Part shown: positions 1,490 through 47,509 of the stretch, one piece after another | Layout: each line of letters begins with the position of its first letter | How positions within the stretch are numbered: position 1 is the stretch's first letter | From: Lachnospiraceae bacterium | Lineage (GTDB): Bacteria; Bacillota; Clostridia; Lachnospirales; Lachnospiraceae | Direction: 5' to 3' | DNA length: 64,000 nt | Assembly: GCA_017399685.1 (NCBI GenBank) | Contig: JAFQBM010000001.1 | Coordinates: 1 to 64,000, forward strand | The notes under the pieces: model-generated | What the model was told of the DNA's origin: nothing | The model's input: the letters and a program-made list of their open reading frames with translations, nothing else | Database searches by the model: none | Program-made: the position numbers and the translations under genes

Positions 1490-1688
1490 AATTGCGAAAC
1501 TACCATAACTTATATTAAGTGATTCAAAAGAAATAAATACATTAGCAGGTGCTTGGACGGCCGTCGGTACTTAATGAGCGTCTCGTCGCGAATTTAGTAC
1601 CGCTACGAGCCGGACGCAGCGAGAGCGTACCTGCGTTGTTTTATTTCTTTTGAATCACTCTCATATAGAATATTATAGTTTCGCAATT
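1490..1688. repeat. Dispersed inverted-repeat element, copy A, with RNA-like core
   Basis: The ends AATTGCGAAACTA and TAGTTTCGCAATT are inverted repeats, and the next ~30 bases (TTAAGTGATTCAAAAGAAAT and its complement) continue the pairing. The core at 1545-1635 opens with GCAGGT and closes with ACCTGC. Inside are smaller stems: GCG-TCTCGT-CGC, CGGTACT/AGTACCG and ACGC/GCGT. A second full copy is at 24417-24613 and a core-less copy at 47413-47509. It lies between spoIIR and the short gerC-like gene. It could be a non-autonomous mobile element, a structured RNA, or both. No open frame is present. Confidence 0.8.
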
Positions 1689-8011: not shown

Positions 8012-8084
8012 TGCGCCTCCAGAGGCTCGAACTCTGGACACCCTGATTAAGAGTCAGGTGCTCTACCAACTGAGCTAGAAGCGC
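8012..8084 (-). tRNA. tRNA-Lys (anticodon CTT)
   Basis: The cloverleaf folds fully: acceptor GCGCTTC with GAGGCGC, D-arm with AGCTCAGTTGGTAGAGC, anticodon stem CCTGA/TCAGG around CTCTTAA (anticodon CTT), and T-arm CCAGAGTTCGAGCCTCTGG. Discriminator is A. CCA is not encoded. An excellent promoter lies 40 bases upstream. Confidence 0.95.
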
Positions 8085-23419: not shown

Positions 23420-23493
23420 TGTTCCCGAGGCGATTCGAACGCCCGACCCTTCGCTTAGGAGGCGAATGCTCTATCCTGCTGAGCTACGGAAAC
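23420..23493 (-). tRNA. tRNA-Arg (anticodon CCT)
   Basis: The cloverleaf is complete: acceptor GTTTCCG/CGGGAAC, D-arm AGCTCAGCAGGATAGAGC, anticodon stem TTCGC/GCGAA around CTCCTAA (anticodon CCT), and T-arm with GGGCGTTCGAATCGCC. Discriminator is A. CCA is not encoded. A terminator follows. Confidence 0.95.
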
Positions 23494-24398: not shown

Positions 24399-24416
24399 CA
24401 ATAACACCTCCTAAAT

Positions 24417-24613
24417 ATTGCGGAACAATCAAATACATATATTAAGTGATTCAAAAAATCAAATACATAAGCAGGTGCTTGTTCGCCCGTCAGCACTTAA
24501 TGAGAGGTTTACCTCGAATTTAGTACCGCTACGAGGCGAACGCACCGAAAGTGTGCCTGCGGTGTTTTGATTCTTTTGAATCACATCCATATAGTAAATT
24601 ATAGCTTCGCAAT
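24417..24613. repeat. Dispersed inverted-repeat element, copy B, with RNA-like core
   Basis: The ends ATTGCGGAAC and GCTTCGCAAT are near-inverted repeats. The flanks TTAAGTGATTCAAAA and TTTTGAATCAC pair as in copy A. The core, 24471-24561, again runs from GCAGGTGC to GCCTGC. Where copy A has the stem GCG-TCTCGT-CGC, this copy has GAGG-TTTA-CCTC: different bases, same pairing. TTAATGAG and GAATTTAGTACCGCTACGAG are conserved around that stem. GTTCGCC/GGCGAAC forms a further 7-bp stem. It lies between DUF3881 and HD-GYP genes. Confidence 0.8.
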
Positions 24614-24621
24614 CTTATGAC

Positions 24622-29331: not shown

Positions 29332-29368
29332 CAAAAAAAAGCAATCAAAGTATGTTTCTTTGATTGCA
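29332..29368 (-). terminator. Intrinsic terminator of the c-di-GMP riboswitch
   Basis: GCAATCAAAG pairs perfectly with CTTTGATTGC, followed by eight T on the minus strand. Its first arm overlaps the 3' end of the aptamer (GGTTGC), as expected for a transcriptional switch. It lies between the aptamer and the LytTR gene. Confidence 0.85.
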
Positions 29369-29447
29369 ACCGAACTATCATAGCATTATGCCGTAGACTT
29401 CCAGCTTTGTGCCCCTATATTTCTATAAGTTTACCCTTGTCATACAA
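29365..29447 (-). ncRNA. Cyclic di-GMP-I (GEMM) riboswitch aptamer
   Basis: Minus-strand landmarks in order are GACAAGGGTAAAC, a GAAA-capped hairpin (ACTTATAGAAATATAGGG), GGGCACAAAGC, CTACGGC..., a second hairpin (GCATAATGC), and TAGTTCGGTTGC. This is the arrangement of GEMM-I, which senses c-di-GMP: AGGGYAAA, the GNNA tetraloop and its receptor side, CRCAAAGC, and the closing GGTTGC. It starts within a few bases of the promoter and runs straight into a terminator. Whether ligand turns the gene on or off needs structure calculation; the overlap of GGTTGC with the terminator arm would favour ligand-bound read-through. Confidence 0.82.
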
Positions 29448-47412: not shown

Positions 47413-47509
47413 CTTAGGTAATTGTGAAACCGTTAAAAACTTATTTTAAGTGTTTTATTTCTTTTCCATCACTTTCACATAACGTACTATAGTTTCGTAA
47501 TTACCTAAG
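47413..47509. repeat. Dispersed inverted-repeat element, shrunken copy C
   Basis: CTTAGGTAATTGTGAAAC and GTTTCGTAATTACCTAAG are near-perfect 18-base inverted ends. They match the ends of copies A (1490-1688) and B (24417-24613), as do the inner TTAAGTG and TTTTATTTCTTTT stretches. The 90-base structured core is missing. The copy lies between rsmG and mnmG. Confidence 0.7.

Follow-up and report, generated by a model that had tools for sequence, protein, structure and literature searches.

Structured RNAs inside mobile DNA are known from IS200/IS605 and IscB elements, in which omegaRNAs and HEARO RNAs go with a tnpB or iscB gene. We know of no ordinary MITE that carries a conserved, covarying RNA domain. 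The bcr repeats of the Bacillus cereus group (bcr1–bcr18) are MITE-like intergenic repeats of 100–400 bp found in a single bacterial group; bcr1 reaches up to 130 copies per genome, and several bcr repeats have a conserved RNA secondary structure and form part of transcripts (PMC6542083, PMC3446304). REP sequences and REPINs, which go with RAYT transposases, are high-copy intergenic palindromes that often lie in inverted neighbouring pairs (PMC3116915, PMC2817692, PMC3733652). Individual REPs measure 20–40 bp and are tagged at one end by GTAG or CGTC (PMC3733652).

Here, we describe an element dispersed through Lachnospiraceae genomes, starting from a 64,000-nucleotide stretch of one of them, which we refer to as the window. 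The original prediction, made on the window alone, placed two long copies there with inverted ends and a shared core of ~90 bases, and this was confirmed by the sequence and by covariance model R2. Copy A occupies 1487–1691. Its left terminal inverted repeat (GGCAATTGCGAAACTA; 1487–1502, + strand) has one mismatch to GGTAATTGCGAAACTA, while the right one (1676–1691, − strand) matches it exactly. Inside these lie the left palindromic arm (1518–1544), which extends stem P1 outward and is predicted to pair with the right arm (1635–1659), and between the arms the structured core (1545–1634, + strand; R2 score 91.1 bits, E = 1.5e-23), whose pairs covary. Copy B, at about 24415–24615, has the same parts: degenerate terminal inverted repeats at 24415–24430 (+ strand; this end is less certain than that of copy A) and 24600–24615 (− strand), arms at 24444–24470 and 24561–24584, and a core at 24471–24560 (+ strand; 78.2 bits, E = 7.4e-20). 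A third copy had also been proposed. This element C (47417–47505, with its right end at 47490–47505) proved to be a coreless relative instead, retaining the terminal inverted repeats and part of the arms without a match to R2. A Pfam check of the neighbours placed copy A between spoIIR and a gerAC-like gene, copy B between a DUF3881 gene and an HD-domain gene, and element C between mnmG and rsmG; the cores of copies A and B are antisense to both flanking genes. The window also holds a c-di-GMP-I riboswitch (29362–29445, − strand; 65.4 bits) and tRNAs at 8012–8084 and 23420–23493. We consider it likely that copies A and B belong to a non-autonomous MITE-type element with a structured RNA apex under selection at the RNA level; insertion of this element with duplications in its own genome, and the transposase of a relative with shared ends, are computed results.

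When folded as RNA, copy A is predicted to form a single long hairpin (−91.7 kcal/mol, z = −10.9 against dinucleotide shuffles). The pairing within the core was worked out by aligning copies from the window's own genome (G000) with copies from other genera. P1 closes the core, P1b and P2 carry the stem on, and a 2-nt YU bulge on the 3′ side (CU at 1603–1604, + strand, in copy A) sits between P2 and P3. P3 itself is GGUACU/AGUACC, lengthened by a C-G or U-A pair. Beyond it come a U.U mismatch, three pairs (AAU/AUU in copy A), a tandem G.A/A.G, and a variable tip stem, P4 (1578–1589, + strand, within a hairpin that spans 1566–1601 on the + strand in copy A). P5, a small hairpin with a GNRA loop (GC-GAGA-GC at 1619–1626, + strand), is inserted in the 3′ strand where P1b gives way to P1, and makes the fold a three-way junction. 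Across 151 unique core copies the stems vary, and the YU bulge was kept in all 151, the U.U mismatch in 147, and the G.A/A.G tandem in 133. The P5 loop was GNRA in 132 of the 141 copies where the P5 stem was found, and its third base was a purine in 140 of them (G 70, A 70, U 1). Two of the differences between copies that had originally been remarked upon are real and keep the pairing, namely the tip stem reading GCG/CGC or GAGG/CCTC and the exchange of G-C in copy A for C-G in copy B, which falls in P2. The loops described as almost unchanged are indeed conserved, but they consist mostly of paired bases: TTAATGA and GAATTTA form a stem that is broken by the U.U mismatch and the tandem G.A pairs. 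In two variant copies, L110:1082–1160 (− strand) and L162 (G203), a longer hairpin takes the place of P5 and its GNRA loop.

Two copies alone could not have established covariation; about 150 copies from dozens of genomes do. Over 31 pairs in 89 distinct copies, 91.0% of cells were able to pair, against 71.3% in shuffles. Changes on both sides of a pair were found for 30 of the 31 pairs and made up 572 cells, compared with 151 ± 16 in shuffles and at most 120 when the partners were slid by 1 to 3 columns. Because this alignment had previously been fitted to 23 of the 31 tested pairs, we added a separate tree-based test, an R-scape-like implementation of our own run on 43 copies (one per genome), in which substitutions are redistributed on a FastTree tree and columns are scored with an APC-corrected G statistic. 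Its E-values are approximate, given that the implementation is our own and the tail was fitted with an exponential. E < 0.05 was reached by nine of the 3655 column pairs, all of them consistent with the structure. Seven were already in the structure given to the test, and the other two, columns 8–136 and 9–135, are adjoining P1b pairs that were absent from it; the composition of pair 8–136 was CG 30, AU 16, GC 15, and UA 13. The proposed selection on structure was thus borne out by both analyses. Throughout one bacterial family, and within palindromic arms of several types, the three-way junction is held while its base pairs exchange. We regard it as well established, with very little room for doubt, that the core represents a genuine structured family.

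The suggestion that the element has spread as a mobile one also held up, on the strength of shared terminal inverted repeats, ~10-bp target duplications, and an intact transposase in a relative with the same ends. In G000, GGTAATTGCGAAACTA is found with few mismatches at both ends of most copies. Flanks matching at 8 or more of 10 positions, as a target duplication of ~10 bp would leave, were observed for 9 of 22 G000 copies where 0.66 were expected, and flank matches totalled 138, against 91 ± 6.6 with the right flanks shuffled. The register of the duplication was fixed after some copies had been viewed; an earlier try in another register gave no signal, and copies A and B themselves have no clear target duplication. 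The exact 16-mer end AGGTAATTGCGAAACT was found in 37 of 348 genomes of the family, with zero control matches. In one of these genomes, G342, the 16-mer terminates an element with a 498-aa open transposase frame, present in six copies that are 98–100% identical. This transposase matches Pfam DUF772 and, weakly, a DDE domain; its nearest NCBIfam model is IS1182 at 79.7 bits against a cut-off of 270, so it can be called IS1182-like only. By eye, the same ends with long duplications were seen around the core at L260, L257, and also L274, and the same ends with target duplications but no core at L275, L276, and L278 (G123, G199, and G196). The core is not itself an IS end, because these ends are also found on elements that lack it. 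Other palindromic centres replace the core at these last three loci.

The distribution of the ends and of the core do not fully coincide. Exact AGGTAATTGCGAAACT is absent from the core-rich genomes G203, G230, G284, and G353, no match to the G342-type transposase was found in G016, G084, G211, or G348, and G000 has no intact transposase of this type, only a distant match (28% identity) and a short fragment. Palindromic arms of other kinds contain the core too. For the core-rich genomes that lack AGGTAATTGCGAAACT, this leaves two possibilities: divergence of the ends, or carriage of the core by more than one type of element. Several candidate carriers were examined and set aside. In G084, none of 20 end matches bounded a transposon-sized stretch and no transposase match was found; a 5.2-kb stretch between exact end repeats in G000 (contig C40) had ORFs that look by eye like host genes; and the intervals between divergent cores, considered as composite transposons, were unrelated unique sequence or ordinary-looking genes (by eye). 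That the carrier in G000 is a mobile element we also hold to be well established, with a little more reserve than for the core family.

About 19 full-length copies are present in G000 (3.25 Mb in 65 contigs), along with many fragments and two copies (L021 and L022, on contigs C60 and C23) whose core centre is swapped for a multi-hairpin stretch of ~120 nt that is much alike in both. With covariance model R1, the core was found in 149 of 397 Lachnospiraceae genomes, representing 132 of 334 genera, and the per-genome counts are lower bounds in many genomes. G016 alone has at least 150 copies, as the best 150 of 1207 candidates all match. Wider samples, drawn from the order (196 genomes), the class (291), and the phylum (299), yielded no core match outside this family; the matches obtained in them fall only within it. 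As anticipated, the core has no known Rfam family: Rfam 15 gave no match to it at the gathering score and none to copy A even at E up to 5, and the one weak match overlapping a core copy was to a model of a plant miRNA, with a score well short of the cut-off; the other weak matches lie elsewhere and have no bearing on the core. No published description of the core was found in the open literature, although most subscription journals were outside the search. A phage or plasmid origin was not supported, as neither of two core patterns was matched exactly in viral contigs and no plasmid match was obtained. The sole phage hit, MT836025.1 (L298), is a scaffold named Bacteriophage sp. on which two divergent cores adjoin genes that by eye look bacterial (ldh, dinB, and an ABC transporter), and it is probably a mislabelled bacterial scaffold.

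Complementarity within palindromes could in principle arise with no structural selection at all, if hairpin-mediated repair or gene conversion between the arms mimicked covariation. The outer arms do behave in this way. In G110 (loci L168–L177), the cores are 95% identical between copies and the left arms only 63% (54% for random sequence), and yet the two arms within each copy are 80% complementary. A like but weaker tendency was seen in G203, where arm complementarity is 0.68 within a copy and 0.57 when arms are crossed between copies, and arm segments in G016 vary yet stay complementary within single copies. In the core, however, the irregularities that such repair would erase, the U.U mismatch, the G.A/A.G tandem, and the YU bulge, rank among the most conserved features, and the GNRA hairpin is present on one strand only. 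The held mismatches, the one-sided hairpin, and the GNRA rule speak strongly against hairpin repair as the sole cause of the complementarity, and an origin without structural selection seems to us very improbable. The same conserved fold might instead work as a single-stranded DNA hairpin bound by a transposase or recombinase, with no part played by RNA, on the model of IS200/IS605 ends, REP sequences, and attC sites. This would suit a carrier that is mobile DNA, G.T wobbles and sheared G.A pairs form in DNA too, and the lack of a clear orientation bias relative to genes would be expected if transcription did not matter. Yet the purine at the third loop position is an RNA habit, as is an excess of G.U over A.C pairs, and the mobility route that was found relies on the outer ends, where a DDE transposase acts, rather than on a hairpin. 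Summed over the stems of the 151-copy alignment, the + strand has 67 G.U against 16 A.C when pair 24–69 is left out; this pair contributes 39 C.A and zero U.G, and its inclusion brings the comparison to 67 against 55. The strand argument is weakened accordingly, being good at most positions but not unanimous. Judged from sequence patterns, RNA is favoured over single-stranded DNA by the GNRA rule, by the restriction of that hairpin to one strand, and by the retained mismatches. We consider selection on RNA likely, in the absence of transcript data, and a purely DNA hairpin unlikely.

The core might also have been kept to serve the host, for example by forming a hairpin at the 3′ ends of transcripts that protects or terminates them, or by supplying a set of small RNAs. 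Hundreds of intergenic copies would fit such a role, as would the observations that the 3′ side of the core in G016 often ends near the stop codon of the facing gene and that two species of one genus share the position of some insertions (L111 and L112). In the orientation survey, which relied on a simple ORF caller and not a gene finder, 89 copies had readable neighbours; 37 were antisense to both, 29 sense to both, and 13 and 10 mixed, with 3 copies inside a long ORF. Half of the copies would therefore show the wrong strand for a host role, and the presence of the core is patchy (149 of 397 genomes) beside neighbours that are unrelated to one another. Pfam searches covering the genes beside A, B, and C, and beside four further copies in other genomes, returned only ordinary, unrelated genes, with no tnpB or iscB among them. 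We find a host role unlikely on this evidence. A cis-regulatory RNA such as a riboswitch or leader was rejected as well, since the intergenic placement, mixed orientation, and unrelated neighbours argue against it. Inspection by eye lent no support to promoter-like boxes to the left of the G016 copies. In G284, two antisense cores lie in gaps of an operon that by eye resembles one for purine biosynthesis (L114), and in G203 about 115 nt separate a core copy from a TwoAYGGAY RNA (L091, 1225–1386, − strand).

Close neighbouring cores are nearly always divergent, with their 5′ sides facing. This held for 8 of 8 pairs within 700 nt among the best 150 hits in G016 and for about a dozen more pairs in other genomes (L104, L108, L109, L110, L115, L116, L130, L134, L142, L151, L160, and L298), with tandem exceptions at L113 and L116. 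Genomes with divergent neighbouring cores include G016, G203, G084, and G284 (see also loci L235–L242). One possible reading is that the RNA core is itself a mobile or homing module, its fold being recognised by an RNP that acts in trans and inserts the core into palindromic DNA. If true, this would explain why one core occurs in many copy-specific arms and with different transposon ends, and perhaps also the divergent pairing of neighbours, but we think it rather improbable. Our first choice, an inference without a known partner that we put forward only tentatively, is that the RNA is a binding module for a trans-acting factor that serves the element. The + strand would be transcribed, by read-through or from a promoter of its own, although no transcript has been seen. 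The folded RNA would then bind a protein or RNP acting in trans, for which no candidate is known, and this binding may favour the spread or persistence of the element and not the regulation of a neighbouring gene.

The core appears to be an undescribed structured RNA family belonging to one of the major families of gut bacteria, where over a third of the genomes sampled contain it. Its occurrence here indicates that mobile DNA is able to carry a complex, strictly conserved RNA fold without an adjacent protein gene. With the covariance model and the obvious point mutants, the role of an RNA in a DNA transposon can be investigated. Hairpins of this type sit in many of the intergenic regions of these genomes, a point that matters for annotation and for RNA-seq.

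With the omegaRNA and HEARO RNAs, the core shares the property of being a structured RNA inside mobile DNA. It differs in that no tnpB or iscB was found beside the copies checked and that no Rfam family matches it; a guide RNA of IS200/IS605 or IscB elements was rejected given the ordinary genes that neighbour these copies. REPs and REPINs are likewise high-copy intergenic palindromes that often lie in inverted neighbouring pairs. A tagged palindrome of 20–40 bp cannot be equated with a multi-helix core of ~90 nt in elements of ~200 bp (~205 bp), which in G000 have DDE-type ends and target duplications, and identity with REPs was rejected. The likeness to the MITEs of IS families is closer: the elements are short and gene-less, with terminal inverted repeats, target duplications, ends in common with an intact transposase-bearing element, and many intergenic copies. 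Unlike ordinary MITEs, same-ended elements occur here both with and without an RNA core. The bcr repeats share the MITE-like intergenic placement, the restriction to one group, the high copy number, and the structure. Their mobility is tied to TTTAT repeats, in contrast to the ~10-bp duplications and IS1182-like transposon ends found here, and in our samples the matches are confined to the window's family, so membership in the bcr repeats was ruled out. The host family also differs, and the fold described here is larger, of the junction type, and set in several kinds of arm. Judged by the published descriptions and not by a comparison of sequences, the element nevertheless resembles the bcr repeats in kind.
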